Of a stretch of 64,000 nt of DNA, positions 1-27,171 are shown in pieces. The notes under the pieces were generated by a model, which saw only the letters and a list, made by a program, of their open reading frames with translations, searched no databases and had not been told where the DNA came from. Numbering within the stretch: the stretch's first letter is position 1; each line of letters opens with the position of its first letter. The stretch is taken from contig JAGUCH010000001.1 of NCBI GenBank assembly GCA_019096065.1, forward strand, positions 930,001 to 994,000, in the 5' to 3' direction. This DNA comes from Paracyclopina nana. Its lineage: Eukaryota > Arthropoda > Copepoda > Cyclopoida > Cyclopettidae. The position numbers and the translations under genes were made by a program.

Positions 1-41
1 CGGACGAGAACTGGTATGTTCAGTGTGATATGGCCGTTGGC
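1..41 (-). rRNA. 5S rRNA B-type, unit 1 (partial)
   Basis: Only the 5' 41 nt are inside the window; the rest lies beyond the left edge. Confidence 0.9.
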
Positions 42-134
42 AAACATTGCTCAGATGGCTTGTTTTTTTGTCCCACTCTCATGCTATGCAACTCAAAAGT
101 AGACTGCAAGGTTGGGCTGGTAAAAAAGTCAGAT

Positions 135-252
135 GCCAACAGCACCCAGGGTTCCCAAGCAGTCTCCCATCTAAGTACTGACTGGGCTCTACATTGCTTG
201 ACTGCAGTGATCAGACGAGAACTGGTACATTCAATGTGATGTGGCCGTTGGC
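135..252 (-). rRNA. 5S rRNA A-type, unit 1 (A reference copy)
   Basis: This is the RNA of the large ribosomal subunit central protuberance, transcribed by Pol III from an internal promoter. On the minus strand the 118-nt gene starts GCCAACGGCC and ends GGGTGCTGTTGGC, so the ends pair as helix I. The internal control region is present (AGTCAAGC at nt 51-58, then the TACTTAGATGGGAGAC region from nt 76). A T6 run follows the 3' end by eight nt. It differs from the B type at nt 12, 19, 24, 25, 40, 49, 59, 69, 81, 88, 92, 95 and 103. Changes 19/59 and 81/95 are paired changes that preserve helices II and IV. That argues for a working RNA rather than a pseudogene, although expression cannot be judged from sequence. 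Confidence 0.92.
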
Positions 253-395
253 AAGCACTGCCACCACACGGCCGCATTTTCAACACCATCGCCTCTGGTG
301 GCCAAGAAAGCAAAAGTCAACCGCACCACCTTGCAGGCACACCTAACACCTGTAGTTGCTGTTTCATAGTGATGACTCACTCACTAAAAAGAAAT

Positions 396-513
396 GCCAA
401 CAGCACCCAGTGTTCCCAGGCGGTCACCCATCCAAGTACTGACTAGGCTCTACACTGCTTGACTTCAGTGATCGGACGAGAACTGGTATGTTCAGTGTGA
501 TATGGCCGTTGGC
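396..513 (-). rRNA. 5S rRNA B-type, unit 2 (B reference copy)
   Basis: This 118-nt 5S gene is the version closer to general animal 5S in the box C region (TACTTGGATGGG, then GACCGCCTGGGAA). The ends pair as helix I (GCCAAC with GTTGGC). Helix II is nt 16-21 with 57-62, and helix IV is closed by G81-C95. A T5 run lies five nt beyond the 3' end and would terminate Pol III. The upstream flank is an A-rich stretch (the T-run near 535-541 on the plus strand) about 25 nt before the start, where arthropod 5S genes often have an AT-rich element. That role is inferred. Confidence 0.93.
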
Positions 514-606
514 AAACATTGCTCAGATGGCTTGTTTTTTTGTCCCACTCTCATGCTATGCAACTCAAAAGTAGACTGCAAGGTTGGGCTGGTAAAAAAG
601 TCAGAT

Positions 607-724
607 GCCAACAGCACCCAGGGTTCCCAAGCAGTCTCCCATCTAAGTACTGACTGGGCTCTACATTGCTTGACTGCAGTGATCAGACGAGAACTGGTAC
701 ATTCAATGTGATGTGGCCGTTGGC
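607..724 (-). rRNA. 5S rRNA A-type, unit 2
   Basis: Reference A sequence; T6 terminator. Confidence 0.9.
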
Positions 725-867
725 AAGCACTGCCACCACACGGCCGCATTTTCAACACCATCGCCTCTGGTGGCCAAGAAAGCAAAAGTCAACCGCACCA
801 CCTTGCAGGCACACCTAACACCTGTAGTTGCTGTTTCATAGTGATGACTCACTCACTAAAAAGAAAT

Positions 868-985
868 GCCAACAGCACCCAGTGTTCCCAGGCGGTCACC
901 CATCCAAGTACTGACTAGGCTCTACACTGCTTGACTTCAGTGATCGGACGAGAACTGGTATGTTCAGTGTGATATGGCCGTTGGC
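868..985 (-). rRNA. 5S rRNA B-type, unit 3
   Basis: Reference B sequence; T5 terminator. Confidence 0.9.
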
Positions 986-1078
986 AAACATTGCTCAGAT
1001 GGCTTGTTTTTTTGTCCCACTCTCATGCTATGCAACTCAAAAGTAGACTGCAAGGTTGGGCTGGTAACTAAGTCAGAT

Positions 1079-1196
1079 GCCAACAGCACCCAGGGTTCCC
1101 AAGCAGTCTCCCATCTAAGTACTGACTGGGCTCTACATTGCTTGACTGCAGTGATCAGACGAGAACTGGTACATTCAATGTGATGTGGCCGTTGGC
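1079..1196 (-). rRNA. 5S rRNA A-type, unit 3
   Basis: Gene intact, but the terminator T-run is broken (plus strand taactaag at 1066-1073). Confidence 0.88.
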
Positions 1197-1339
1197 AAGC
1201 ACTGCCACCACACGGCCGCATTTTCAACACCATCGCCTCTGGTGGCCAAGAAAGCAAAAGTCAACCGCACCACCTTGCAGGCACACCTAACACCTGTAGT
1301 TGCTGTTTCATAGTGATGACTCACTCACTAAAAAGAAAT

Positions 1340-1457
1340 GCCAACAGCACCCAGTGTTCCCAGGCGGTCACCCATCCAAGTACTGACTAGGCTCTACACT
1401 GCTTGACTTCAGTGATCGGACGAGAACTGGTATGTTCAGTGTGATATGGCCGTTGGC
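1340..1457 (-). rRNA. 5S rRNA B-type, unit 4
   Basis: Reference B sequence; T5 terminator. Confidence 0.9.
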
Positions 1458-1549
1458 AAACATTGCTCAGATGGCTTGTTTTTTGTCCCACTCTCATGCT
1501 ATGCAACTCAAAAGTAGACTGCAAGGTTGGGCTGGTAAAAAAGTCAGAT

Positions 1550-1667
1550 GCCAACAGCACCCAGGGTTCCCAAGCAGTCTCCCATCTAAGTACTGACTGG
1601 GCTCTACATTGCTTGACTGCAGTGATCAGACGAGAACTGGTACATTCAATGTGATGTGGCCGTTGGC
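1550..1667 (-). rRNA. 5S rRNA A-type, unit 4
   Basis: Reference A sequence; T6 terminator. Confidence 0.9.
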
Positions 1668-1810
1668 AAGCACTGCCACCACACGGCCGCATTTTCAACA
1701 CCATCGCCTCTGGTGGCCAAGAAAGCAAAAGTCAACCGCACCACCTTGCAGGCACACCTAACACCTGTAGTTGCTGTTTCATAGTGATGACTCACTCACT
1801 AAAGAGAAAT

Positions 1811-1928
1811 GCCAACAGCACCCAGTGTTCCCAGGCGGTCACCCATCCAAGTACTGACTAGGCTCTACACTGCTTGACTTCAGTGATCGGACGAGAACTG
1901 GTATGTTCAGTGTGATATGGCCGTTGGC
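1811..1928 (-). rRNA. 5S rRNA B-type, unit 5
   Basis: Gene intact; terminator reads TTTCTCTTT instead of T5. Confidence 0.9.
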
Positions 1929-2021
1929 AAACATTGCTCAGATGGCTTGTTTTTTTGTCCCACTCTCATGCTATGCAACTCAAAAGTAGACTGCAAGGTT
2001 GGGCTGGTAAAAAAGTCAGAT

Positions 2022-2139
2022 GCCAACAGCACCCAGGGTTCCCAAGCAGTCTCCCATCTAAGTACTGACTGGGCTCTACATTGCTTGACTGCAGTGATCA
2101 GACGAGAACTGGTACATTCAATGTGATGTGGCCGTTGGC
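2022..2139 (-). rRNA. 5S rRNA A-type, unit 5
   Basis: Reference A sequence; T6 terminator. Confidence 0.9.
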
Positions 2140-2282
2140 AAGCACTGCCACCACACGGCCGCATTTTCAACACCATCGCCTCTGGTGGCCAAGAAAGCAA
2201 AAGTCAACCGCACCACCTTGCAGGCACACCTAACACCTGTAGTTGCTGTTTCATAGTGATGACTCACTCACTAAAGAGAAAT

Positions 2283-2400
2283 GCCAACAGCACCCAGTGT
2301 TCCCAGGCGGTCACCCATCCAAGTACTGACTAGGCTCTACACTGCTTGACTTCAGTGATCGGACGAGAACTGGTATGTTCAGTGTGATATGGCCGTTGGC
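2283..2400 (-). rRNA. 5S rRNA B-type, unit 6
   Basis: Gene intact; interrupted TTTCTCTTT terminator, as in unit 5. Confidence 0.9.
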
Positions 2401-2493
2401 AAACATTGCTCAGATGGCTTGTTTTTTTGTCCCACTCTCATGCTATGCAACTCAAAAGTAGACTGCAAGGTTGGGCTGGTAAAAAAGTCAGAT

Positions 2494-2611
2494 GCCAACA
2501 GCACCCAGGGTTCCCAAGCAGTCTCCCATCTAAGTACTGACTGGGCTCTACATTGCTTGACTGCAGTGATCAGACGAGAACTGGTACATTCAATGTGATG
2601 TGGCCGTTGGC
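2494..2611 (-). rRNA. 5S rRNA A-type, unit 6
   Basis: Reference A sequence; T6 terminator. Confidence 0.9.
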
Positions 2612-2754
2612 AAGCACTGCCACCACACGGCCGCATTTTCAACACCATCGCCTCTGGTGGCCAAGAAAGCAAAAGTCAACCGCACCACCTTGCAGGCACA
2701 CCTAACACCTGTAGTTGCTGTTTCATAGTGATGACTCACTCACTAAAAAGAAAT

Positions 2755-2872
2755 GCCAACAGCACCCAGTGTTCCCAGGCGGTCACCCATCCAAGTACTG
2801 ACTAGGCTCTACACTGCTTGACTTCAGTGATCGGACGAGAACTGGTATGTTCAGTGTGATATGGCCGTTGGC
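2755..2872 (-). rRNA. 5S rRNA B-type, unit 7
   Basis: Reference B sequence; T5 terminator; upstream flank altered (ttgcgttccccaccc at about 2893). Confidence 0.9.
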
Positions 2873-2962
2873 AAACATTGCTCAGATGGCTTGTTGCGTT
2901 CCCCACCCATGCTATGCAACTCAAAAGTAGACTGCAAGGTTGGGCTGGTACAAAAGTCAGAT

Positions 2963-3081
2963 GCCAACAGCACCCAGGGTTCCCAAGCAGTCTCCCATCT
3001 AAGTACTGACTGGGCTCTACATTTGCTTGACTGCAGTGATCAGACGAGAACTGGTACATTCAATGTGATGTGGCCGTTGGC
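2963..3081 (-). rRNA. 5S rRNA A-type, unit 7 (+1 nt)
   Basis: 119 nt: one extra A in the 3' strand of helix II. T4 terminator. Confidence 0.87.
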
Positions 3082-3223
3082 AAGCACTGCCACCACACGG
3101 CCGCATTTTCAACACCATCGCCTCTGGTGGCCAAGAAAGCAAAAGTCAACCGCACCACCTTGCAGGCACACCTAACACCTGTAGTTGCTGTTTCATAGTG
3201 ATGACTCACTCACTAAAAGAAAT

Positions 3224-3341
3224 GCCAACAGCACCCAGTGTTCCCAGGCGGTCACCCATCCAAGTACTGACTAGGCTCTACACTGCTTGACTTCAGTGAT
3301 CGGACGAGAACTGGTATGTTCAGTGTGATATGGCCGTTGGC
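3224..3341 (-). rRNA. 5S rRNA B-type, unit 8
   Basis: Reference B sequence; T4 terminator. Confidence 0.9.
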
Positions 3342-3434
3342 AAACATTGCTCAGATGGCTTGTTTTTTTGTCCCACTCTCATGCTATGCAACTCAAAAGT
3401 AGACTGCAAGGTTGGGCTGGTAAAAAAGTCAGAT

Positions 3435-3552
3435 GCCAACAGCACCCAGGGTTCCCAAGCAGTCTCCCATCTAAGTACTGACTGGGCTCTACATTGCTTG
3501 ACTGCAGTGATCAGACGAGAACTGGTACATTCAATGTGATGTGGCCGTTGGC
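3435..3552 (-). rRNA. 5S rRNA A-type, unit 8
   Basis: Reference A sequence; T6 terminator. Confidence 0.9.
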
Positions 3553-3694
3553 AAGCACTGCCACCACACGGCCGCATTTTCAACACCATCGCCTCTGGTG
3601 GCCAAGAAAGCAAAAATCAACCGCACCACCTTGCAGGCACACCTAACACCTGTAGTTGCTGTTTCATAGTGATGACTCACTCACTAAGAGAAAT

Positions 3695-3812
3695 GCCAAC
3701 AGCACCCAGTGTTCCCAGGCGGTCACCCATCCAAGTACTGACTAGGCTCTACACTGCTTGACTTCAGTGATCGGACGAGAACTGGTATGTTCAGTGTGAT
3801 ATGGCCGTTGGC
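3695..3812 (-). rRNA. 5S rRNA B-type, unit 9
   Basis: Gene intact; terminator reduced to TTTCTCTT. Confidence 0.9.
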
Positions 3813-3900
3813 AAACATTGCTCAGATGGCTTGTTTTTGTCCCACTCTCATGCTATGCAACTCAAAAGTAGACTGCAAGGTTGGGCTGGTAAAGTCAGAT

Positions 3901-4019
3901 GCCAACAGCACCCAGGGTTCCCAAGCAGTCTCCCATCTAAGTACTGACTGGGCTCTACATTTGCTTGACTGCAGTGATCAGACGAGAACTGGTACATTCA
4001 ATGTGATGTGGCCGTTGGC
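3901..4019 (-). rRNA. 5S rRNA A-type, unit 9 (+1 nt)
   Basis: Helix II insertion; terminator only T3. Confidence 0.86.
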
Positions 4020-4161
4020 AAGCACTGCCACCACACGGCCGCATTTTCAACACCATCGCCTCTGGTGGCCAAGAAAGCAAAAGTCAACCGCACCACCTTG
4101 CAGGCACACCTAACACCTGTAGTTGCTGTTTCATAGTGATGACTCACTCACTAAAAGAAAT

Positions 4162-4279
4162 GCCAACAGCACCCAGTGTTCCCAGGCGGTCACCCATCCA
4201 AGTACTGACTAGGCTCTACACTGCTTGACTTCAGTGATCGGACGAGAACTGGTATGTTCAGTGTGATATGGCCGTTGGC
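4162..4279 (-). rRNA. 5S rRNA B-type, unit 10
   Basis: Reference B sequence; T4 terminator. Confidence 0.9.
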
Positions 4280-4369
4280 AAACATTGCTCAGATGGCTTG
4301 TTTTTGTCCCACTCTCATGCTATGCAACTCAAAAGTAGACTGCAAGGTTGGGCTGGTAAAAAGTCAGAT

Positions 4370-4487
4370 GCCAACAGCACCCAGGGTTCCCAAGCAGTCT
4401 CCCATCTAAGTACTGACTGGGCTCTACATTGCTTGACTGCAGTGATCAGACGAGAACTGGTACATTCAATGTGATGTGGCCGTTGGC
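4370..4487 (-). rRNA. 5S rRNA A-type, unit 10
   Basis: Reference A sequence; T5 terminator. Confidence 0.9.
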
Positions 4488-4630
4488 AAGCACTGCCACC
4501 ACACGGCCGCATTTTCAACACCATCGCCTCTGGTGGCCAAGAAAGCAAAAGTCAACCGCACCACCTTGCAGGCACACCTAACACCTGTAGTTGCTGTTTC
4601 ATAGTGATGACTCACTCACTAAAAAGAAAT

Positions 4631-4748
4631 GCCAACAGCACCCAGTGTTCCCAGGCGGTCACCCATCCAAGTACTGACTAGGCTCTACACTGCTTGACTT
4701 CAGTGATCGGACGAGAACTGGTATGTTCAGTGTGATATGGCCGTTGGC
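4631..4748 (-). rRNA. 5S rRNA B-type, unit 11
   Basis: Reference B sequence; T5 terminator. Confidence 0.9.
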
Positions 4749-4838
4749 AAACATTGCTCAGATGGCTTGTTTTTGTCCCACTCTCATGCTATGCAACTCA
4801 AAAAGTAGACTGCAAGGTTGGGCTGGTAAAAGTCAGAT

Positions 4839-4956
4839 GCCAACAGCACCCAGGGTTCCCAAGCAGTCTCCCATCTAAGTACTGACTGGGCTCTACATTG
4901 CTTGACTGCAGTGATCAGACGAGAACTGGTACATTCAATGTGATGTGGCCGTTGGC
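4839..4956 (-). rRNA. 5S rRNA A-type, unit 11
   Basis: Reference A sequence; T4 terminator. Confidence 0.9.
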
Positions 4957-5099
4957 AAGCACTGCCACCACACGGCCGCATTTTCAACACCATCGCCTCT
5001 GGTGGCCAAGAAAGCAAAAGTCAACCGCACCACCTTGCAGGCACACCTAACACCTGTAGTTGCTGTTTCATAGTGATGACTCACTCACTAAAAAGAAAT

Positions 5100-5217
5100 G
5101 CCAACAGCACCCAGTGTTCCCAGGCGGTCACCCATCCAAGTACTGACTAGGCTCTACACTGCTTGACTTCAGTGATCGGACGAGAACTGGTATGTTCAGT
5201 GTGATATGGCCGTTGGC
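5100..5217 (-). rRNA. 5S rRNA B-type, unit 12
   Basis: Gene intact; its upstream flank (5240-5302) is a diverged spacer. Confidence 0.9.
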
Positions 5218-5310
5218 AAACATTGCTCAGATGGCTTGTTTAATGGTCCCACTCTCAAGCTATGCAACTCAAAAGGCGACTGCCAGGTTGGGCCGATATA
5301 AAAGTCAGAT

Positions 5311-5429
5311 GCCAACAGCACCCAGGGTTCCCAAGCAGTCTCCCATCTAAGTACTGACTGGGCTCTACATTTGCTTGACTGCAGTGATCAGACGAGAACT
5401 GGTACATTCAATGTGATGTGGCCGTTGGC
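5311..5429 (-). rRNA. 5S rRNA A-type, unit 12 (+1 nt)
   Basis: Helix II insertion; T4 terminator within a diverged spacer. Confidence 0.86.
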
Positions 5430-5572
5430 AAGCACTGCCACCACACGGCCGCATTTTCAACACCATCGCCTCTGGTGGCCAAGAAAGCAAAAGTCAACCG
5501 CACCACCTTGCAGGCACACCTAACACCTGTAGTTGCTGTTTCATAGTGATGACTCACTCACTAAAAAGAAAT

Positions 5573-5690
5573 GCCAACAGCACCCAGTGTTCCCAGGCGG
5601 TCACCCATCCAAGTACTGACTAGGCTCTACACTGCTTGACTTCAGTGATCGGACGAGAACTGGTATGTTCAGTGTGATATGGCCGTTGGC
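5573..5690 (-). rRNA. 5S rRNA B-type, unit 13
   Basis: Reference B sequence; T5 terminator. Confidence 0.9.
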
Positions 5691-5780
5691 AAACATTGCT
5701 CAGATGGCTTGTTTTTGTCCCACTCTCATGCTATGCAACTCAAAAGTAGACTGCAAGGTTGGGCTGGTAAAAAGTCAGAT

Positions 5781-5898
5781 GCCAACAGCACCCAGGGTTC
5801 CCAAGCAGTCTCCCATCTAAGTACTGACTGGGCTCTACATTTCTTGACTGCAGTGATCAGACGAGAACTGGTACATTCAATGTGATGTGGCCGTTGGC
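5781..5898 (-). rRNA. 5S rRNA A-type, unit 13
   Basis: One base change (C to A at nt 57 on the RNA strand) at the base of helix II; T5 terminator. Confidence 0.88.
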
Positions 5899-6040
5899 AA
5901 GCACTGCCACCACACGGCCGCATTTTCAACACCATCGCCTCTGGTGGCCAAGAAAGCAAAGTCAACCGCACCACCTTGCAGGCACACCTAACACCTGTAG
6001 TTGCTGTTTCATAGTGATGACTCACTCACTAAAAAGAAAT

Positions 6041-6158
6041 GCCAACAGCACCCAGTGTTCCCAGGCGGTCACCCATCCAAGTACTGACTAGGCTCTACAC
6101 TGCTTGACTTCAGTGATCGGACGAGAACTGGTATGTTCAGTGTGATATGGCCGTTGGC
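6041..6158 (-). rRNA. 5S rRNA B-type, unit 14
   Basis: Reference B sequence; T5 terminator. Confidence 0.9.
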
Positions 6159-6249
6159 AAACATTGCTCAGATGGCTTGTTTTTTTGTCCCACTCTCATG
6201 CTATGCAACTCAAAAGTAGACTGCAAGGTTGGGCTGGTAAAAGTCAGAT

Positions 6250-6368
6250 GCCAACAGCACCCAGGGTTCCCAAGCAGTCTCCCATCTAAGTACTGACTGG
6301 GCTCTACATTTGCTTGACTGCAGTGATCAGACGAGAACTGGTACATTCAATGTGATGTGGCCGTTGGC
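6250..6368 (-). rRNA. 5S rRNA A-type, unit 14 (+1 nt)
   Basis: Helix II insertion; T4 terminator. Confidence 0.87.
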
Positions 6369-6511
6369 AAGCACTGCCACCACACGGCCGCATTTTCAAC
6401 ACCATCGCCTCTGGTGGCCAAGAAAGCAAAAGTCAACCGCACCACCTTGCAGGCACACCTAACACCTGTAGTTGCTGTTTCATAGTGATGACTCACTCAC
6501 TAAAAAGAAAT

Positions 6512-6629
6512 GCCAACAGCACCCAGTGTTCCCAGGCGGTCACCCATCCAAGTACTGACTAGGCTCTACACTGCTTGACTTCAGTGATCGGACGAGAACT
6601 GGTATGTTCAGTGTGATATGGCCGTTGGC
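6512..6629 (-). rRNA. 5S rRNA B-type, unit 15
   Basis: Gene intact; upstream A-run lengthened on the RNA strand. Confidence 0.9.
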
Positions 6630-6718
6630 AAACATTGCTCAGATGGCTTTTTTTTTTCCCACTCTCATGCTATGCAACTCAAAAGTAGACTGCAAGGTTG
6701 GGCTGGTAAAAGTCAGAT

Positions 6719-6836
6719 GCCAACAGCACCCAGGGTTCCCAAGCAGTCTCCCATCTAAGTACTGACTGGGCTCTACATTGCTTGACTGCAGTGATCAGAC
6801 GAGAACTGGTACATTCAATGTGATGTGGCCGTTGGC
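6719..6836 (-). rRNA. 5S rRNA A-type, unit 15
   Basis: Reference A sequence; T4 terminator. Confidence 0.9.
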
Positions 6837-6979
6837 AAGCACTGCCACCACACGGCCGCATTTTCAACACCATCGCCTCTGGTGGCCAAGAAAGCAAAAG
6901 TCAACCGCACCACCTTGCAGGCACACCTAACACCTGTAGTTGCTGTTTCATAGTGATGACTCACTCACTAAAAAGAAAT

Positions 6980-7097
6980 GCCAACAGCACCCAGTGTTCC
7001 CAGGCGGTCACCCATCCAAGTACTGACTAGGCTCTACACTGCTTGACTTCAGTGATCGGACGAGAACTGGTATGTTCAGTGTGATATGGCCGTTGGC
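6980..7097 (-). rRNA. 5S rRNA B-type, unit 16
   Basis: Reference B sequence; T5 terminator. Confidence 0.9.
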
Positions 7098-7190
7098 AAA
7101 CATTGCTCAGATGGCTTGTTTTTTTGTCCCACTCTCATGCTATGCAACTCAAAAGTAGACTGCAAGGTTGGGCTGGTAATATAGTCAGAT

Positions 7191-7308
7191 GCCAACAGCA
7201 CCCAGGGTTCCCAAGCAGTCTCCCATCTAAGTACTGACTGGGCTCTACATTGCTTGACTGCAGTGATCAGACGAGAACTGGTACATTCAATGTGATGTGG
7301 CCGTTGGC
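7191..7308 (-). rRNA. 5S rRNA A-type, unit 16
   Basis: Gene intact; T-run destroyed (plus strand taatatag at about 7178). Confidence 0.88.
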
Positions 7309-7451
7309 AAGCACTGCCACCACACGGCCGCATTTTCAACACCATCGCCTCTGGTGGCCAAGAAAGCAAAAGTCAACCGCACCACCTTGCAGGCACACCT
7401 AACACCTGTAGTTGCTGTTTCATAGTGATGACTCACTCACTAAAAAGAAAT

Positions 7452-7569
7452 GCCAACAGCACCCAGTGTTCCCAGGCGGTCACCCATCCAAGTACTGACT
7501 AGGCTCTACACTGCTTGACTTCAGTGATCGGACGAGAACTGGTATGTTCAGTGTGATATGGCCGTTGGC
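7452..7569 (-). rRNA. 5S rRNA B-type, unit 17
   Basis: Reference B sequence; T5 terminator. Confidence 0.9.
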
Positions 7570-7662
7570 AAACATTGCTCAGATGGCTTGTTTTTTTGTC
7601 CCACTCTCATGCTATGCAACTCAAAAGTAGACTGCAAGGTTGGGCTGGTACTCTTCTCAGAT

Positions 7663-7780
7663 GCCAACAGCACCCAGGGTTCCCAAGCAGTCTCCCATCT
7701 AAGTACTGACTGGGCTCTACATTGCTTGACTGCAGTGATCAGACGAGAACTGGTACATTCAATGTGATGTGGCCGTTGGC
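7663..7780 (-). rRNA. 5S rRNA A-type, unit 17
   Basis: Gene intact; T-run replaced by tactcttctc on the plus strand, so no terminator at the usual place. Confidence 0.88.
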
Positions 7781-7923
7781 AAGCACTGCCACCACACGGC
7801 CGCATTTTCAACACCATCGCCTCTGGTGGCCAAGAAAGCAAAAGTCAACCGCACCACCTTGCAGGCACACCTAACACCTGTAGTTGCTGTTTCATAGTGA
7901 TGACTCACTCACTAAAAAGAAAT

Positions 7924-8041
7924 GCCAACAGCACCCAGTGTTCCCAGGCGGTCACCCATCCAAGTACTGACTAGGCTCTACACTGCTTGACTTCAGTGAT
8001 CGGACGAGAACTGGTATGTTCAGTGTGATATGGCCGTTGGC
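7924..8041 (-). rRNA. 5S rRNA B-type, unit 18
   Basis: Reference B sequence; T5 terminator. Confidence 0.9.
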
Positions 8042-8135
8042 AAACATTGCTCAGATGGCTTGTTTTTTTGTCCCACTCTCATGCTATGCAACTCAAAAGT
8101 AGACTGCAAGGTTGGGGTGGTAGAAAGTGTCAGAT

Positions 8136-8253
8136 GCCAACAGCACCCAGGGTTCCCAAGCAGTCTCCCATCTAAGTACTGACTGGGCTCTACATTGCTT
8201 GACTGCAGTGATCAGACGAGAACTGGTACATTCAATGTGATGTGGCCGTTGGC
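8136..8253 (-). rRNA. 5S rRNA A-type, unit 18
   Basis: Gene intact; terminator only T3 in a rearranged stretch. Confidence 0.88.
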
Positions 8254-8396
8254 AAGCACTGCCACCACACGGCCGCATTTTCAACACCATCGCCTCTGGT
8301 GGCCAAGAAAGCAAAAGTCAACCGCACCACCTTGCAGGCACACCTAACACCTGTAGTTGCTGTTTCATAGTGATGACTCACTCACTAAAAAGAAAT

Positions 8397-8514
8397 GCCA
8401 ACAGCACCCAGTGTTCCCAGGCGGTCACCCATCCAAGTACTGACTAGGCTCTACACTGCTTGACTTCAGTGATCGGACGAGAACTGGTATGTTCAGTGTG
8501 ATATGGCCGTTGGC
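8397..8514 (-). rRNA. 5S rRNA B-type, unit 19
   Basis: Reference B sequence; T5 terminator. Confidence 0.9.
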
Positions 8515-8608
8515 AAACATTGCTCAGATGGCTTGTTTTTTTGTCCCACTCTCATGCTATGCAACTCAAAAGTAGACTGCAAGGTTGGGCTGGTAAAAAA
8601 AGTCAGAT

Positions 8609-18483: not shown

Positions 18484-18602
18484 GCCAACAGCACCCAGGG
18501 TTCCCAAGCAGTCTCCCATCTAAGTACTGACTGGGCTCTACATTTGCTTGACTGCAGTGATCAGACGAGAACTGGTACATTCAATGTGATGTGGCCGTTG
18601 GC
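18484..18602 (-). rRNA. 5S rRNA A-type, unit 40 (+1 nt)
   Basis: Helix II insertion; T5 terminator. Confidence 0.87.
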
Positions 18603-18745
18603 AAGCACTGCCACCACACGGCCGCATTTTCAACACCATCGCCTCTGGTGGCCAAGAAAGCAAAAGTCAACCGCACCACCTTGCAGGCACACCTAACACC
18701 TGTAGTTGCTGTTTCATAGTGATGACTCACTCACTAAAAAGAAAT

Positions 18746-18863
18746 GCCAACAGCACCCAGTGTTCCCAGGCGGTCACCCATCCAAGTACTGACTAGGCTC
18801 TACACTGCTTGACTTCAGTGATCGGACGAGAACTGGTATGTTCAGTGTGATATGGCCGTTGGC
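18746..18863 (-). rRNA. 5S rRNA B-type, unit 41
   Basis: Reference B sequence; T5 terminator. Confidence 0.9.
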
Positions 18864-18953
18864 AAACATTGCTCAGATGGCTTGTTTTTGTCCCACTCTC
18901 ATGCTATGCAACTCAAAAGTAGACTGCAAGGTTGGGCTGGTAAAAAGTCAGAT

Positions 18954-19071
18954 GCCAACAGCACCCAGGGTTCCCAAGCAGTCTCCCATCTAAGTACTGA
19001 CTGGGCTCTACATTGCTTGACTGCAGTGATCAGACGAGAACTGGTACATTCAATGTGATGTGGCCGTTGGC
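18954..19071 (-). rRNA. 5S rRNA A-type, unit 41
   Basis: Reference A sequence; T5 terminator. Confidence 0.9.
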
Positions 19072-19214
19072 AAGCACTGCCACCACACGGCCGCATTTTC
19101 AACACCATCGCCTCTGGTGGCCAAGAAAGCAAAAGTCAACCGCACCACCTTGCAGGCACACCTAACACCTGTAGTTGCTGTTTCATAGTGATGACTCACT
19201 CACTAAAAAGAAAT

Positions 19215-19332
19215 GCCAACAGCACCCAGTGTTCCCAGGCGGTCACCCATCCAAGTACTGACTAGGCTCTACACTGCTTGACTTCAGTGATCGGACGAGA
19301 ACTGGTATGTTCAGTGTGATATGGCCGTTGGC
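19215..19332 (-). rRNA. 5S rRNA B-type, unit 42
   Basis: Reference B sequence; T5 terminator. Confidence 0.9.
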
Positions 19333-19424
19333 AAACATTGCTCAGATGGCTTGTTTTTGTCCCACTCTCATGCTATGCAGCTCAAAAGTAGACTGCAAGG
19401 TTGGGCTGGTAAAAAAAGTCAGAT

Positions 19425-19542
19425 GCCAACAGCACCCAGGGTTCCCAAGCAGTCTCCCATCTAAGTACTGACTGGGCTCTACATTGCTTGACTGCAGTGA
19501 TCAGACGAGAACTGGTACATTCAATGTGATGTGGCCGTTGGC
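19425..19542 (-). rRNA. 5S rRNA A-type, unit 42
   Basis: Reference A sequence; T7 terminator. Confidence 0.9.
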
Positions 19543-19685
19543 AAGCACTGCCACCACACGGCCGCATTTTCAACACCATCGCCTCTGGTGGCCAAGAAAG
19601 CAAAAGTCAACCGCACCACCTTGCAGGCACACCTAACACCTGTAGTTGCTGTTTCATAGTGATGACTCACTCACTAAAAAGAAAT

Positions 19686-19803
19686 GCCAACAGCACCCAG
19701 TGTTCCCAGGCGGTCACCCATCCAAGTACTGACTAGGCTCTACACTGCTTGACTTCAGTGATCGGACGAGAACTGGTATGTTCAGTGTGATATGGCCGTT
19801 GGC
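19686..19803 (-). rRNA. 5S rRNA B-type, unit 43
   Basis: Reference B sequence; T5 terminator. Confidence 0.9.
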
Positions 19804-19896
19804 AAACATTGCTCAGATGGCTTGTTTTTTTGTCCCACTCTCATGCTATGCAACTCAAAAGTAGACTGCAAGGTTGGGCTGGTAAAAAAGTCAGAT

Positions 19897-20014
19897 GCCA
19901 ACAGCACCCAGGGTTCCCAAGCAGTCTCCCATCTAAGTACTGACTGGGCTCTACATTGCTTGACTGCAGTGATCAGACGAGAACTGGTACATTCAATGTG
20001 ATGTGGCCGTTGGC
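19897..20014 (-). rRNA. 5S rRNA A-type, unit 43
   Basis: Reference A sequence; T6 terminator. Confidence 0.9.
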
Positions 20015-20157
20015 AAGCACTGCCACCACACGGCCGCATTTTCAACACCATCGCCTCTGGTGGCCAAGAAAGCAAAAGTCAACCGCACCACCTTGCAGGC
20101 ACACCTAACACCTGTAGTTGCTGTTTCATAGTGATGACTCACTCACTAAAAAGAAAT

Positions 20158-20275
20158 GCCAACAGCACCCAGTGTTCCCAGGCGGTCACCCATCCAAGTA
20201 CTGACTAGGCTCTACACTGCTTGACTTCAGTGATCGGACGAGAACTGGTATGTTCAGTGTGATATGGCCGTTGGC
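20158..20275 (-). rRNA. 5S rRNA B-type, unit 44
   Basis: Reference B sequence; T5 terminator. Confidence 0.9.
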
Positions 20276-20368
20276 AAACATTGCTCAGATGGCTTGTTTT
20301 TTTGTCCCACTCTCATGCTATGCAACTCAAAAGTAGACTGCAAGGTTGGGCTGGTAAAAAAGTCAGAT

Positions 20369-20486
20369 GCCAACAGCACCCAGGGTTCCCAAGCAGTCTC
20401 CCATCTAAGTACTGACTGGGCTCTACATTGCTTGACTGCAGTGATCAGACGAGAACTGGTACATTCAATGTGATGTGGCCGTTGGC
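20369..20486 (-). rRNA. 5S rRNA A-type, unit 44
   Basis: Reference A sequence; T6 terminator. Confidence 0.9.
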
Positions 20487-20629
20487 AAGCACTGCCACCA
20501 CACGGCCGCATTTTCAACACCATCGCCTCTGGTGGCCAAGAAAGCAAAAGTCAACCGCACCACCTTGCAGGCACACCTAACACCTGTAGTTGCTGTTTCA
20601 TAGTGATGACTCACTCACTAAAAAGAAAT

Positions 20630-20747
20630 GCCAACAGCACCCAGTGTTCCCAGGCGGTCACCCATCCAAGTACTGACTAGGCTCTACACTGCTTGACTTC
20701 AGTGATCGGACGAGAACTGGTATGTTCAGTGTGATATGGCCGTTGGC
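20630..20747 (-). rRNA. 5S rRNA B-type, unit 45
   Basis: Reference B sequence; T5 terminator. Confidence 0.9.
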
Positions 20748-20841
20748 AAACATTGCTCAGATGGCTTGTTTTTTTGTCCCACTCTCATGCTATGCAACTC
20801 AAAAGTAGACTGCAAGGTTGGGCTGGTAAAAAAAGTCAGAT

Positions 20842-20959
20842 GCCAACAGCACCCAGGGTTCCCAAGCAGTCTCCCATCTAAGTACTGACTGGGCTCTACA
20901 TTGCTTGACTGCAGTGATCAGACGAGAACTGGTACATTCAATGTGATGTGGCCGTTGGC
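20842..20959 (-). rRNA. 5S rRNA A-type, unit 45
   Basis: Reference A sequence; T7 terminator. Confidence 0.9.
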
Positions 20960-21102
20960 AAGCACTGCCACCACACGGCCGCATTTTCAACACCATCGCC
21001 TCTGGTGGCCAAGAAAGCAAAAGTCAACCGCACCACCTTGCAGGCACACCTAACACCTGTAGTTGCTGTTTCATAGTGATGACTCACTCACTAAAAAGAA
21101 AT

Positions 21103-21220
21103 GCCAACAGCACCCAGTGTTCCCAGGCGGTCACCCATCCAAGTACTGACTAGGCTCTACACTGCTTGACTTCAGTGATCGGACGAGAACTGGTATGTTC
21201 AGTGTGATATGGCCGTTGGC
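21103..21220 (-). rRNA. 5S rRNA B-type, unit 46
   Basis: Reference B sequence; T5 terminator. Confidence 0.9.
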
Positions 21221-21313
21221 AAACATTGCTCAGATGGCTTGTTTTTTTGTCCCACTCTCATGCTATGCAACTCAAAAGTAGACTGCAAGGTTGGGCTGGT
21301 AAAAAAGTCAGAT

Positions 21314-21431
21314 GCCAACAGCACCCAGGGTTCCCAAGCAGTCTCCCATCTAAGTACTGACTGGGCTCTACATGGCTTGACTGCAGTGATCAGACGAGAA
21401 CTGGTACATTCAATGTGATGTGGCCGTTGGC
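21314..21431 (-). rRNA. 5S rRNA A-type, unit 46
   Basis: One private substitution in helix II (plus strand acatgg at 21371); T6 terminator. Confidence 0.88.
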
Positions 21432-21574
21432 AAGCACTGCCACCACACGGCCGCATTTTCAACACCATCGCCTCTGGTGGCCAAGAAAGCAAAAGTCAAC
21501 CGCACCACCTTGCAGGCACACCTAACACCTGTAGTTGCTGTTTCATAGTGATGACTCACTCACTAAAAAGAAAT

Positions 21575-21692
21575 GCCAACAGCACCCAGTGTTCCCAGGC
21601 GGTCACCCATCCAAGTACTGACTAGGCTCTACACTGCTTGACTTCAGTGATCGGACGAGAACTGGTATGTTCAGTGTGATATGGCCGTTGGC
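21575..21692 (-). rRNA. 5S rRNA B-type, unit 47
   Basis: Reference B sequence; T5 terminator. Confidence 0.9.
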
Positions 21693-21785
21693 AAACATTG
21701 CTCAGATGGCTTGTTTTTTTGTCCCACTCTCATGCTATGCAACTCAAAAGTAGACTGCAAGGTTGGGCTGGTAAAAAAGTCAGAT

Positions 21786-21903
21786 GCCAACAGCACCCAG
21801 GGTTCCCAAGCAGTCTCCCATCTAAGTACTGACTGGGCTCTACATTGCTTGACTGCAGTGATCAGACGAGAACTGGTACATTCAATGTGATGTGGCCGTT
21901 AAA
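21786..21903 (-). rRNA. 5S rRNA A-type, unit 47 (altered 5' end)
   Basis: The first three nt are TTT instead of GCC, so three helix I pairs are lost; likely non-functional. T6 terminator. Confidence 0.78.
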
Positions 21904-22045
21904 AGCACTGCCACCACACGGCCGCATTTTCAACACCATCGCCTCTGGTGGCCAAGAAAGCAAAAGTCAACCGCACCACCTTGCAGGCACACCTAACACC
22001 TGTAGTTGCTGTTTCATAGTGATGACTCACTCACTAAAAAGAAAT

Positions 22046-22163
22046 GCCAACAGCACCCAGTGTTCCCAGGCGGTCACCCATCCAAGTACTGACTAGGCTC
22101 TACACTGCTTGACTTCAGTGATCGGACGAGAACTGGTATGTTCAGTGTGATATGGCCGTTGGC
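22046..22163 (-). rRNA. 5S rRNA B-type, unit 48
   Basis: Reference B sequence; T5 terminator. Confidence 0.9.
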
Positions 22164-22256
22164 AAACATTGCTCAGATGGCTTGGTTTTTTGTCCCACTC
22201 TCATGCTATGCAACTCAAAAGTAGACTGCAAGGTTGGGCTGGTAAAAAAGTCAGAT

Positions 22257-22374
22257 GCCAACAGCACCCAGGGTTCCCAAGCAGTCTCCCATCTAAGTAC
22301 TGACTGGGCTCTACATTGCTTGACTGCAGTGATCAGACGAGAACTGGTACATTCAATGTGATGTGGCCGTTGGC
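22257..22374 (-). rRNA. 5S rRNA A-type, unit 48
   Basis: Reference A sequence; T6 terminator. Confidence 0.9.
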
Positions 22375-22517
22375 AAGCACTGCCACCACACGGCCGCATT
22401 TTCAACACCATCGCCTCTGGTGGCCAAGAAAGCAAAAGTCAACCGCACCACCTTGCAGGCACACCTAACACCTGTAGTTGCTGTTTCATAGTGATGACTC
22501 ACTCACTAAAAAGAAAT

Positions 22518-22635
22518 GCCAACAGCACCCAGTGTTCCCAGGCGGTCACCCATCCAAGTACTGACTAGGCTCTACACTGCTTGACTTCAGTGATCGGACG
22601 AGAACTGGTATGTTCAGTGTGATATGGCCGTTGGC
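22518..22635 (-). rRNA. 5S rRNA B-type, unit 49
   Basis: Reference B sequence; T5 terminator. Confidence 0.9.
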
Positions 22636-22728
22636 AAACATTGCTCAGATGGCTTGTTTTTTTGTCCCACTCTCATGCTATGCAACTCAAAAGTAGACTG
22701 CAAGGTTGGGCTGGTAAAAAAGTCAGAT

Positions 22729-22846
22729 GCCAACAGCACCCAGGGTTCCCAAGCAGTCTCCCATCTAAGTACTGACTGGGCTCTACATTGCTTGACTGCA
22801 GTGATCAGACGAGAACTGGTACATTCAATGTGATGTGGCCGTTGGC
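22729..22846 (-). rRNA. 5S rRNA A-type, unit 49
   Basis: Reference A sequence; T6 terminator. Confidence 0.9.
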
Positions 22847-22988
22847 AAGCACTGCCACCACACGGCCGCATTTTCAACACCATCGCCTCTGGTGGCCAAG
22901 AAAGCAAAAGTCAACCGCACCACCTTGCAGGCACACCTAACACCTGTAGTTGCTGTTTCATAGTGATGACTCACTCACTAAAAGAAAT

Positions 22989-23106
22989 GCCAACAGCACC
23001 CAGTGTTCCCAGGCGGTCACCCATCCAAGTACTGACTAGGCTCTACACTGCTTGACTTCAGTGATCGGACGAGAACTGGTATGTTCAGTGTGATATGGCC
23101 GTTGGC
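22989..23106 (-). rRNA. 5S rRNA B-type, unit 50
   Basis: Reference B sequence; T4 terminator. Confidence 0.9.
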
Positions 23107-23199
23107 AAACATTGCTCAGATGGCTTGTTTTTTTGTCCCACTCTCATGCTATGCAACTCAAAAGTAGACTGCAAGGTTGGGCTGGTAAAAAAGTCAGAT

Positions 23200-23317
23200 G
23201 CCAACAGCACCCAGTGTTCCCAAGCAGTCTCCCATCTAAGTACTGACTGGGCTCTACATTGCTTGACTGCAGTGATCAGACGAGAACTGGTACATTCAAT
23301 GGGATGTGGCCGTTGGC
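23200..23317 (-). rRNA. 5S rRNA A-type, unit 50 (A' subtype)
   Basis: Carries the B-like base at nt 103 plus a private A16C; same subtype as units 57 and 58. T6 terminator. Confidence 0.87.
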
Positions 23318-23460
23318 AAGCACTGCCACCACACGGCCGCATTTTCAACACCATCGCCTCTGGTGGCCAAGAAAGCAAAAGTCAACCGCACCACCTTGCA
23401 GGCACACCTAACACCTGTAGTTGCTGTTTCATAGTGATGACTCACTCACTAAAGAGAAAT

Positions 23461-23578
23461 GCCAACAGCACCCAGTGTTCCCAGGCGGTCACCCATCCAA
23501 GTACTGACTAGGCTCTACACTGCTTGACTTCAGTGATCGGACGAGAACTGGTATTTGCAGTGTAATATGGCCATTGGC
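23461..23578 (-). rRNA. 5S rRNA B-type, unit 51 (diverged)
   Basis: Several changes in the first 30 nt (plus strand tatttgcagtgtaat and gccattggc). Helix I C6-G becomes a T-G wobble. Interrupted TTTCTCTTT terminator. Confidence 0.83.
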
Positions 23579-23671
23579 AAACATTGCCCAGAAGGCTTGT
23601 TATTTTGTACGTCTCTCCTGCAATGCAGCTCAAACGTAGACTGCAAGGTTAGGCTGGCAAAAAAGTCAGAT

Positions 23672-23789
23672 GCCAACAGCACCCAGGGTTCCCAAGCAGT
23701 CTCCCATCTAAGTACTGACTGGGCTCTACATTGCTTGACTGCAGTGATCAGACGAGAACTGGTACATTCAATGTGATGTGGCCGTTGGC
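23672..23789 (-). rRNA. 5S rRNA A-type, unit 51
   Basis: Gene intact beside a diverged spacer; T6 terminator. Confidence 0.9.
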
Positions 23790-23932
23790 AAGCACTGCCA
23801 CCACACGGCCGCATTTTCAACACCATCGCCTCTGGTGGCCAAGAAAGCAAAAGTCAACCGCACCACCTTGCAGGCACACCTAACACCTGTAGTTGCTGTT
23901 TCATAGTGATGACTCACTCACTAAAAAGAAAT

Positions 23933-24050
23933 GCCAACAGCACCCAGTGTTCCCAGGCGGTCACCCATCCAAGTACTGACTAGGCTCTACACTGCTTGAC
24001 TTCAGTGATCGGACGAGAACTGGTATGTTCAGTGTGATATGGCCGTTGGC
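23933..24050 (-). rRNA. 5S rRNA B-type, unit 52
   Basis: Reference B sequence; T5 terminator. Confidence 0.9.
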
Positions 24051-24144
24051 AAACATTGCTCAGATGGCTTGTTTTTTTTGTCCCACTCTCATGCTATGCA
24101 ACTCAAAAGTAGACTGCAAGGTTGGGCTGGTAAAAAAGTCAGAT

Positions 24145-24262
24145 GCCAACAGCACCCAGGGTTCCCAAGCAGTCTCCCATCTAAGTACTGACTGGGCTCT
24201 ACATTGCTTGACTGCAGTGATCAGACGAGAACTGGTACATTCAATGTGATGTGGCCGTTGGC
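24145..24262 (-). rRNA. 5S rRNA A-type, unit 52
   Basis: Reference A sequence; T6 terminator. Confidence 0.9.
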
Positions 24263-24405
24263 AAGCACTGCCACCACACGGCCGCATTTTCAACACCATC
24301 GCCTCTGGTGGCCAAGAAAGCAAAAGTCAACCGCACCACCTTGCAGGCACACCTAACACCTGTAGTTGCTGTTTCATAGTGATGACTCACTCACTAAAAA
24401 GAAAT

Positions 24406-24523
24406 GCCAACAGCACCCAGTGTTCCCAGGCGGTCACCCATCCAAGTACTGACTAGGCTCTACACTGCTTGACTTCAGTGATCGGACGAGAACTGGTATG
24501 TTCAGTGTGATATGGCCGTTGGC
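24406..24523 (-). rRNA. 5S rRNA B-type, unit 53
   Basis: Reference B sequence; T5 terminator. Confidence 0.9.
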
Positions 24524-24616
24524 AAACATTGCTCAGATGGCTTGTTTTTTTGTCCCACTCTCATGCTATGCAACTCAAAAGTAGACTGCAAGGTTGGGCT
24601 GGTAAAAAAGTCAGAT

Positions 24617-24734
24617 GCCAACAGCACCCAGTGTTCCCAAGCAGTCTCCCATCTAAGTACTGACTGGGCTCTACATTGCTTGACTGCAGTGATCAGACGA
24701 GAACTGGTACATTCAATGTGATGTGGCCGTTGGC
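24617..24734 (-). rRNA. 5S rRNA A-type, unit 53
   Basis: B-like base at nt 103 but no A16C; T6 terminator. Confidence 0.88.
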
Positions 24735-24876
24735 AAGCACTGCCACCACACGGCCGCATTTTCAACACCATCGCCTCTGGTGGCCAAGAAAGCAAAAGTC
24801 AACCGCACCACCTTGCAGGCACACCTAACACCTGTAGTTGCTGTTTCATAGTGATGACTCACTCACTAAAAGAAAT

Positions 24877-24994
24877 GCCAACAGCACCCAGTGTTCCCAG
24901 GCGGTCACCCATCCAAGTACTGACTAGGCTCTACACTGCTTGACTTCAGTGATCGGACGAGAACTGGTATGTTCAGTGTGATATGGCCGTTGGC
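24877..24994 (-). rRNA. 5S rRNA B-type, unit 54
   Basis: Gene intact; T4 terminator; upstream A-run replaced by a cgtcctg-containing stretch. Confidence 0.9.
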
Positions 24995-25087
24995 AAACAT
25001 TGCTCAGATGGCTTGTCGTCCTGTCCCACTCACATGCTATGCCACCCCAAAGTAGACTGCAAGGTTGGGCTGGTAAAAAAGTCAGAT

Positions 25088-25205
25088 GCCAACAGCACCC
25101 AGGGTTCCCAAGCAGTCTCCCATCTAAGTACTGACTGGGCTCTACATTGCTTGACTGCAGTGATCAGACGAGAACTGGTACATTCAATGTGATGTGGCCG
25201 TTGGC
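25088..25205 (-). rRNA. 5S rRNA A-type, unit 54
   Basis: Reference A sequence; T6 terminator. Confidence 0.9.
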
Positions 25206-25347
25206 AAGCACTGCCACCACACGGCCGCATTTTCAACACCATCGCCTCTGGTGGCCAAGAAAGCAAAGTCAACCGCACCACCTTGCAGGCACACCTAACA
25301 CCTGTAGTTGCTGTTTCATAGTGATGACTCACTCACTAAAAAGAAAT

Positions 25348-25465
25348 GCCAACAGCACCCAGTGTTCCCAGGCGGTCACCCATCCAAGTACTGACTAGGC
25401 TCTACACTGCTTGACTTCAGTGATCGGACGAGAACTGGTATGTTCAGTGTGATATGGCCGTTGGC
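25348..25465 (-). rRNA. 5S rRNA B-type, unit 55
   Basis: Reference B sequence; T5 terminator. Confidence 0.9.
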
Positions 25466-25553
25466 AAACATTGCTCAGATGGCTTGTTTTTGTCCCACTC
25501 TCATGCTATGCAACTCAAAAGTAGACTGCAAGGTTGGGCTGGTAAAGTCAGAT

Positions 25554-25673
25554 GCCAACAGCACCCCAGGGTTCCCAAGCAGTCTCCCATCTAAGTACTG
25601 ACTGGGCTCTACATTTGCTTGACTGCAGTGATCAGACGAGAACTGGTACATTCAATGTGATGTGGCCGTTGGC
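25554..25673 (-). rRNA. 5S rRNA A-type, unit 55 (+2 nt)
   Basis: 120 nt: helix II insertion plus one extra G in the 3' GGG run; terminator only T3. Confidence 0.83.
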
Positions 25674-25816
25674 AAGCACTGCCACCACACGGCCGCATTT
25701 TCAACACCATCGCCTCTGGTGGCCAAGAAAGCAAAAGTCAACCGCACCACCTTGCAGGCACACCTAACACCTGTAGTTGCTGTTTCATAGTGATGACTCA
25801 CTCACTAAAAAGAAAT

Positions 25817-25934
25817 GCCAACAGCACCCAGTGTTCCCAGGCGGTCACCCATCCAAGTACTGACTAGGCTCTACACTGCTTGACTTCAGTGATCGGACGA
25901 GAACTGGTATGTTCAGTGTGATATGGCCGTTGGC
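25817..25934 (-). rRNA. 5S rRNA B-type, unit 56
   Basis: Reference B sequence; T5 terminator. Confidence 0.9.
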
Positions 25935-26024
25935 AAACATTGCTCAGATGGCTTGTTTTTGTCCCACTCTCATGCTATGCAACTCAAAAGTAGACTGCAA
26001 GGTTGGGCTGGTAATAAGTCAGAT

Positions 26025-26142
26025 GCCAACAGCACCCAGGGTTCCCAAGCAGTCTCCCATCTAAGTACTGACTGGGCTCTACATTGCTTGACTGCAGTGA
26101 TCAGACGAGAACTGGTACATTCAATGTGATGTGGCCGTTGGC
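26025..26142 (-). rRNA. 5S rRNA A-type, unit 56
   Basis: Gene intact; T-run interrupted (plus strand taataag). Confidence 0.88.
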
Positions 26143-26284
26143 AAGCACTGCCACCACACGGCCGCATTTTCAACACCATCGCCTCTGGTGGCCAAGAAAG
26201 CAAAGTCAACCGCACCACCTTGCAGGCACACCTAACACCTGTAGTTGCTGTTTCATAGTGATGACTCACTCACTAAAAAGAAAT

Positions 26285-26402
26285 GCCAACAGCACCCAGT
26301 GTTCCCAGGCGGTCACCCATCCAAGTACTGACTAGGCTCTACACTGCTTGACTTCAGTGATCGGACGAGAACTGGTATGTTCAGTGTGATATGGCCGTTG
26401 GC
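26285..26402 (-). rRNA. 5S rRNA B-type, unit 57
   Basis: Reference B sequence; T5 terminator. Confidence 0.9.
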
Positions 26403-26495
26403 AAACATTGCTCAGATGGCTTGTTTTTTTGTCCCACTCTCATGCTATGCAACTCAAAAGTAGACTGCAAGGTTGGGCTGGTAAAAAAGTCAGAT

Positions 26496-26613
26496 GCCAA
26501 CAGCACCCAGTGTTCCCAAGCAGTCTCCCATCTAAGTACTGACTGGGCTCTACATTGCTTGACTGCAGTGATCAGACGAGAACTGGTACATTCAATGGGA
26601 TGTGGCCGTTGGC
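26496..26613 (-). rRNA. 5S rRNA A-type, unit 57 (A' subtype)
   Basis: B-like base at nt 103 and A16C; T6 terminator. Confidence 0.87.
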
Positions 26614-26756
26614 AAGCACTGCCACCACACGGCCGCATTTTCAACACCATCGCCTCTGGTGGCCAAGAAAGCAAAAGTCAACCGCACCACCTTGCAGGCA
26701 CACCTAACACCTGTAGTTGCTGTTTCATAGTGATGACTCACTCACTAAAAAGAAAT

Positions 26757-26874
26757 GCCAACAGCACCCAGTGTTCCCAGGCGGTCACCCATCCAAGTAC
26801 TGACTAGGCTCTACACTGCTTGACTTCAGTGATCGGACGAGAACTGGTATGTTCAGTGTGATATGGCCGTTGGC
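26757..26874 (-). rRNA. 5S rRNA B-type, unit 58
   Basis: Last B copy at the right end of the array; T5 terminator. Confidence 0.9.
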
Positions 26875-26967
26875 AAACATTGCTCAGATGGCTTGTTTTT
26901 TTGTCCCACTCTCATGCTATGCAACTCAAAAGTAGACTGCAAGGTTGGGCTGGTAAAAAAGTCAGAT

Positions 26968-27085
26968 GCCAACAGCACCCAGTGTTCCCAAGCAGTCTCC
27001 CATCTAAGTACTGACTGGGCTCTACATTGCTTGACTGCAGTGATCAGACGAGAACTGGTACATTCAATGGGATGTGGCCGTTGGC
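26968..27085 (-). rRNA. 5S rRNA A-type, unit 58 (A' subtype, array end)
   Basis: Last 5S gene. Same A' subtype as units 50 and 57. Only about 86 bp of the upstream spacer remain before array similarity stops near 27171. Confidence 0.87.
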
Positions 27086-27171
27086 AAGCACTGCCACCAC
27101 ACGGCCGCATTTTCAACACCATCGCCTCTGGTGGCCAAGAAAGCAAAAGTCAACCGCACCACCTTGCAGGC

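Follow-up and report, generated by a model that had tools for sequence, protein, structure and literature searches.

Two full-length 5S rRNA gene types alternate in one repeat unit of the copepod Paracyclopina nana

An array of 5S ribosomal RNA (rRNA) genes in the copepod Paracyclopina nana raises the question of how two different genes, here called A and B, come to share one repeat unit and remain distinct in it, copy after copy. The array lies at the start of a 64,000-nucleotide stretch of DNA (C1:930001-994000, referred to below as the window) from a genome of 91.95 Mb in 10 contigs. It extends leftward past the window edge, and as a whole (array 1) spans approximately C1:913,283-957,181. 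Tandem Repeats Finder (TRF) reports the part inside the window as a single array with a period of 472, 57.7 copies and 98% matches, ending at 27181; the end at 27171 proposed in an earlier reading of the window from its letters alone (the sequence-only reading) was about right. In the order of transcription, on the minus strand, the 472-bp unit consists of gene A (119 bp), spacer 1 (142 bp), gene B (119 bp) and spacer 2 (92 bp). Within the window, Rfam identifies 57 whole A and 58 B genes, 115 5S genes in total and every one on the minus strand. A 58th A is truncated by the left edge of the window and is whole in the genome (C1:929923-930041). Both types are full-length matches to RF00001 (model positions 1-120) over the gathering score of 38 bits, in 57/57 whole A copies and 58/58 B copies. 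The A copies score 111 bits, apart from three that score lower (54 at 111), and the B copies score 82.3-98.8 bits, most of them 97.6. The same Rfam scan of the window found no RNA family besides 5S over threshold.

The alternation of the two types was the central claim of the sequence-only reading, and it is borne out beyond the window too. Across the whole of array 1, 80 A and 81 B genes (161 genes) follow one another without a break over 44 kb, and B is present in each of the 81 segments that lie between two A genes or flank one. The Rfam totals for the window and two extra stretches agree independently (57 + 23 A and 58 + 23 B, one A of this total straddling the boundary of stretch L014 and the window). 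One segment, in which the head scored low for B, is interrupted by a ~6-kb insert and has its B at the far end. Alternation this strict is far beyond chance.

Thirteen of the 119 positions distinguish the A and B reference copies, with no indel between them (positions 12, 19, 24, 25, 40, 49, 59, 69, 81, 88, 92, 95 and 103), corresponding to 89% identity, and the number of differences given by the sequence-only reading was correct. Units were compared by aligning 78 of the 79 intervals between array-1 A genes, leaving out the interval that bears the insert. At the 13 diagnostic sites the B state occurs in 0/1014 A cells and the A state in 5/1014 B cells, all five at site 103, in agreement with the earlier suggestion that each type is homogenised without merging with the other. 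Neighbouring units, at 6.45 differences, do not resemble each other significantly more than random pairs do, at 6.61 (P=0.16), and variants are scattered along the array. For example, a one-base insertion behind B position 57, beside helix II, is present in 11/78 units, spanning unit 2 to unit 68. In this fully assembled array, two 89%-identical genes, 92 and 142 bp apart, hardly convert each other, yet each is homogenised along the array.

These observations make the unit of concerted evolution visible as the whole repeat, not the gene. Unequal crossing-over and conversion would act on complete 472-bp units, so that A and B are copied together, and the scattered variants fit exchange over the whole of array 1. 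Whole-unit copying of this kind would result in a 1:1 ratio, in homogenisation of each position across units, and in types that remain unmixed.

Whether the 1:1 ratio matters to the organism is addressed by a second array (array 2; C1:1266695-1302193, read from C1:1262001-1306000), ~310 kb from array 1, which consists of 103 A genes in units of ~347 bp and contains no full B. Three of the 103 A genes have small indels, and the A consensus is identical in the two arrays. A 41-base A pattern (up to three mismatches) has 102 plus-strand and 80 minus-strand copies genome-wide and, among the plus-strand matches listed, all fall within C1:1266.7-1301.4k. The corresponding B pattern has no plus-strand copy and 80 minus-strand copies genome-wide, all 80 of them in array 1. 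The genome also contains a lone third-type 5S gene (C2:6683836-6683954), which differs from A at 7/119 positions and from B at 16/119. Its score of 116.7 bits is the best of the 47 candidates scored in the genome search; it is single copy by its own pattern, and lacks the start motif seen in the array genes. In total, there are about 183 A genes, 81 B genes and one lone gene, degenerate copies elsewhere not having been sought exhaustively. The suggestion in the sequence-only reading that the types are locked 1:1 in a dosage-balanced system is not supported by an A:B ratio of about 183:81. With 103 A genes in an array that has no full B, no genome-wide 1:1 balance is needed, and dosage balance is rejected on account of this A-only array. 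Nothing requires a functional 1:1 link between A and B, and the A-only array argues against one.

Although array 2 has no full B, it retains a trace of a second 5S copy, as a relic of ~35 nt from the 3' end that is present in 99/99 inter-A segments and in the stretch before the first A. No relic was found in the stretch behind the last array-2 A. Of the array-2 intervals, 96 of 99 were aligned; the three left out are of double length, each with a small-indel A, and were scored once each for the relic. Among the aligned A copies, 4/96 have the B base at site 92. Derivation of the relic from B by truncation was considered: A88 and T92 are common with B, but C95 and A103 are common with A. The relic's parent is uncertain because it is equally far from A and from B (4/34 each). 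Its T-run flank resembles, by eye, that of the array-2 A. The array-1 spacer 2 resembles the array-2 spacer (a score reached in 1/300 shuffles; for spacer 1, 7/300), indicating that the common history of the two arrays is not confined to the gene. With its truncated second copy, array 2 lends itself naturally to comparison, as a sister array that manages without the second gene. At its left edge there is also a short inverted stretch, noted by eye, which is like the array-1 A start plus the upstream motif.

The history of B can be read from how its differences fall on the 5S fold. The 13 A/B differences break 0/34 Rfam base pairs, whereas 13 substitutions drawn at random with matching proportions of transitions and transversions break 4.0 on average, and 0.5% of such draws leave every pair intact (P=0.005). 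Measured against the lone C2 gene (an unrooted reference), 11 changes are unique to B and two to A (exact P=0.022), and the 11 changes of the B branch alone likewise break 0/34 pairs (null mean 3.6, P=0.007). In helix II, pair 19:59 carries a double compensatory change, and the helix takes three forms: CACTG/CAGTG (A), CATTG/CAATG (B) and CGTTG/CAACG (the C2 gene). Six additional base pairs, which we take to belong to the 5S fold, were added to the 34 Rfam pairs (40 in total). With these, a second double change is found at 81:95 (P=0.015 for two) and 1/40 pairs is broken, at 72:103 (P=0.02 for so few; P=0.034 for the B branch alone). From these comparisons B does not look like ordinary junk, and its history looks selected.

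The present variation of B gives a different picture. Variant copies of B occur in 22/78 aligned array-1 units and variant copies of A in 4/78 (P=0.00016). Variant spacer 1 occurs in 15/78 units, from which B is not different (P=0.26), and variant spacer 2 in 14/78. Of the substitutions segregating in B, 5/13 break Rfam pairs, versus 0/13 of the fixed A/B differences (one-sided P=0.02). B looks less constrained than A now, and its present state looks relaxed.

Taken together, B is probably an old 5S duplicate that was shaped by 5S structural constraint, is now relaxed, and is carried along 1:1 through whole-unit homogenisation. The duplicate would have come to share a repeat unit with the standard A, and would have diverged while selected for the 5S fold. 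Judging from its flanks, B can probably be transcribed, as a minor 5S species, since a start-proximal motif and a terminator-like T-run of its own are kept (Table 1), while spacers 1 and 2 as wholes are not clearly alike (a score reached in 35/300 shuffles). It may at the same time be heading to become a pseudogene.

Several points weigh against this explanation. By distinct variants, the gap between A and B is milder: in a table that leaves out columns in or next to homopolymers of at least 5, A has 11 and B 19 in 119 sites, against 18 in 135 sites for spacer 1 and 47 in 75 sites for spacer 2. B is therefore not clearly unconstrained. It may even be more constrained than spacer 2, because spacer 2 has 47 distinct variants over its 75 sites. 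Clusters of 5-20 substitutions in stretches of <100 nt, mostly in spacer 2, occur in array-1 units 3, 6, 29, 34, 45, 50 and 74. Such clustered variants in single units could be assembly or polishing errors, or could reflect template switching, and the variant counts include the units that carry them. One double compensatory change in the Rfam set is within chance (P=0.19), and the second double change, like the P values for few breaks in the 40-pair set, rests on the added pairs. Six of the 13 differences fall in box A, the intermediate element (IE) and box C, which make up 36 of 119 positions (P of at least six = 0.16), so that these control boxes have not been spared. As for the flanks, the match between the start motifs has a chance of ~0.002 per comparison, and was chosen after looking. 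The T-runs show little, because the array-2 relic keeps its T-run in 95/96 units, versus 78/96 for the array-2 A. Several tests were made, with modest P values and a small sample (13 changes), and P values near 0.02 are taken as suggestive.

The alternative that survives best, unlikely as we consider it, is a functional dual 5S system, with both types in use, for example B in one stage or tissue and A everywhere, and with array 2 adding A. The full length of B, its intact Rfam pairs, its start-proximal motif and its T-run speak for this reading, and with one array of A alone and another of both types, the proportion of A to B could vary with which array is active. However, B is variant in at least as many units as spacer 1 and in ~5 times as many as A, helices are broken by five of the 13 segregating B substitutions, and the insertion beside helix II is carried by 11/78 B copies. 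In the arrangement of its genes the array also departs from dual, stage-specific systems, where the types occupy separate arrays: here A and B share a unit, and an A-only array exists as well.

Rather unlikely, too, is that B is a plain pseudogene riding in the unit, as in Gnetum and in the Xenopus laevis oocyte unit (both discussed below). This would explain why B varies more often than A and has diverged faster, why changes in its control region are not depleted, and why the second copy of array 2 has been cut down to its 3' end. It fits poorly with a copy that is full length, retains a T-run and start motif of its own, and has broken none of the 34 Rfam pairs when ~4 breaks would be expected of a neutral copy; the base-pair test weakens the neutral pseudogene as a whole explanation.

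A more specific possibility, which we regard as improbable, is that A and B are both in ribosomes, which would then fall into two classes in proportions that depend on the active array (A=B with array 1, A only with array 2). If this were true, the composite unit would be a genetic device for ribosome heterogeneity and, more generally, a B found in ribosomes would make a tractable case of rRNA heterogeneity in an invertebrate. Lastly, it is most improbable that separate A and B arrays were woven together in the assembly. Tandem arrays are hard to assemble and some units contain clustered odd variants, but the alternation is strict over 44 kb, each gene has a distinct spacer on each side, and the second array is cleanly different.

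Returning to B as a formerly constrained and now relaxed duplicate, the arrangement can be compared with other repeats that carry extra 5S copies. The Xenopus laevis oocyte 5S unit contains a gene and a truncated pseudogene in each repeat, and is thus likewise a gene with a second 5S-like copy; the frog copy is truncated, whereas B is full length. A legend also mentions a X. laevis 5S pseudogene in the sequence M10635 (PMC12294053). In Gnetum montanum the unit has the tentative order 5Sc-NTS1-5Sp-NTS2, with a gene and a pseudogene, its long-range order being uncertain, and in Ephedra altissima a gene and two truncated copies are found in all or nearly all units and are homogenised like the gene (PMC6526317). 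The extra Ephedra copies are called pseudogenes, with 40-bp 5' deletions and low similarity (PMC6526317). As far as the consulted sections of that paper go, array 1 resembles these units in that a functional 5S is accompanied by further 5S copies (PMC6526317); array 1 too has two 5S copies per repeat that are homogenised together. By contrast with the Gnetum and Ephedra pseudogenes, B is full length, shares 89% identity with A and preserves the base pairs, and its alternation with A is read directly over 161 genes. B is neither truncated nor unfoldable, as the second copy of a gene-plus-pseudogene unit would be; the second copy of array 2 is truncated.

The sequence-only reading had set the array apart from known systems by the presence of two 5S types in one unit. 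This uniqueness does not hold, in that composite or mixed units are known from the excerpts on Gnetum montanum and the crustacean Pollicipes (PMC6526317, PMC3215682). In Pollicipes, different 5S unit types adjoin in tandem, some of them linked to putative pseudogenes (PMC3215682); the passages seen describe a few dimers and one trimer, with types defined by spacer and no long regular alternation, whereas array 1 is regular. In Xenopus two 5S types map to distinct sites (PMC3342222), and in fish two 5S classes are organised separately (PMC3123226). On these partial accounts, frogs and fish likewise have two 5S types per genome, but apart, while here the types share one unit. In Tribolium, truncated 5S copies lie inside arrays, and in T. 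castaneum their placement among full genes is called random (PMC11202950, in part); these copies are like the array-2 relic, but the placement of the relic is regular. Term searches of the open-access literature, in the portions of text that they returned, brought up no animal 5S unit that regularly combines two full-length types, although a report of one may exist. Array 1 differs from the systems above in a second copy that is full length with its fold kept, and in a regular alternation read directly over 161 genes.

Table 1. Coordinates of array 1 and of representative features of its unit (window positions)
Feature	Position	Strand	Basis and remarks
Array 1, tandem 472-bp composite units	1..27181	-	Rfam, TRF; continues left to ~C1:913283
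Type A 5S rRNA gene, example (57 whole window copies)	395..513	-	Rfam RF00001, 111 bits
Type B 5S rRNA gene, example (58 window copies)	134..252	-	RF00001, 97.6 bits; 13 differences from A
Spacer 1, A end to B start	253..394	-	Rfam coordinates, consensus
Spacer 2, B end to A start	514..605	-	Rfam coordinates, consensus
Outermost B, array 5' end	26967..27085	-	Unit then breaks off within spacer 1
T-run behind A, Pol III terminator-like	386..390	-	At least 4 T in 73/78 units
T-run behind B	122..127	-	At least 4 T in 67/78 units
Start-proximal motif of A, GCAATGTTT, directly before gene	514..522	-	7/9 identical to that of B
Start-proximal motif of B, GCAGTGCTT, directly before gene	253..261	-	7/9 match to GCAATGTTT of A
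A-rich stretch (GAAAA) ~25-30 bp before B	277..281	-	By eye, weak; A has an A-run at 535-541

Other RNA genes were sought in the spacers and in the genome. A scan of the spacers for spliced leader (SL) RNA and other small RNA, up to E=10 (window 1-620 and positions 1000-1800 of the array-2 stretch L018), gave only 5S above the gathering score. A search of the genome for the SL1 family gave no match, and no control genome gave a match either, which makes this negative uninformative. A COX1 search of the assembly gave no match. A bantam microRNA match in the genome (57.9 bits, E=9.4e-10) hints at a protostome but is under the gathering score of 61. An 18S-type locus (L023 1730-5136; C6:6391.7-6395.1k) was the only one found by a 3'-end pattern with up to three mismatches. 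Its small subunit (SSU) match is 1176 bp long and extends across all 1831 model positions. Matches to 5.8S and to parts of the large subunit (LSU) accompany it, the near-universal 3' motif has one change, and the locus is probably a decayed ribosomal DNA copy.

The insert of ~6 kb inside one array-1 unit (from L013 ~5300 to L014 ~1450) is retroelement-like. It contains an integrase-type frame with a weak Pfam match (Integrase_p58_C, 27.5 bits vs a cut-off of 27) and another long frame, membrane-type by eye. Beyond the array, reading frames of a rhodopsin-type G-protein-coupled receptor (Pfam 7tm_1; 27350-27958 and 30331-31215, minus strand; region 27350-31215) end ~170 bp from the broken-off unit at the 5' end of array 1. 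Towards the far end of the window, at 58014-62582, there are several tandem repeats of ~110-317 bp, in which GGGGTCAATGACCTG occurs in the left units and its complement in the right units, suggesting, by eye, an inverted arrangement at ~59-61 kb.

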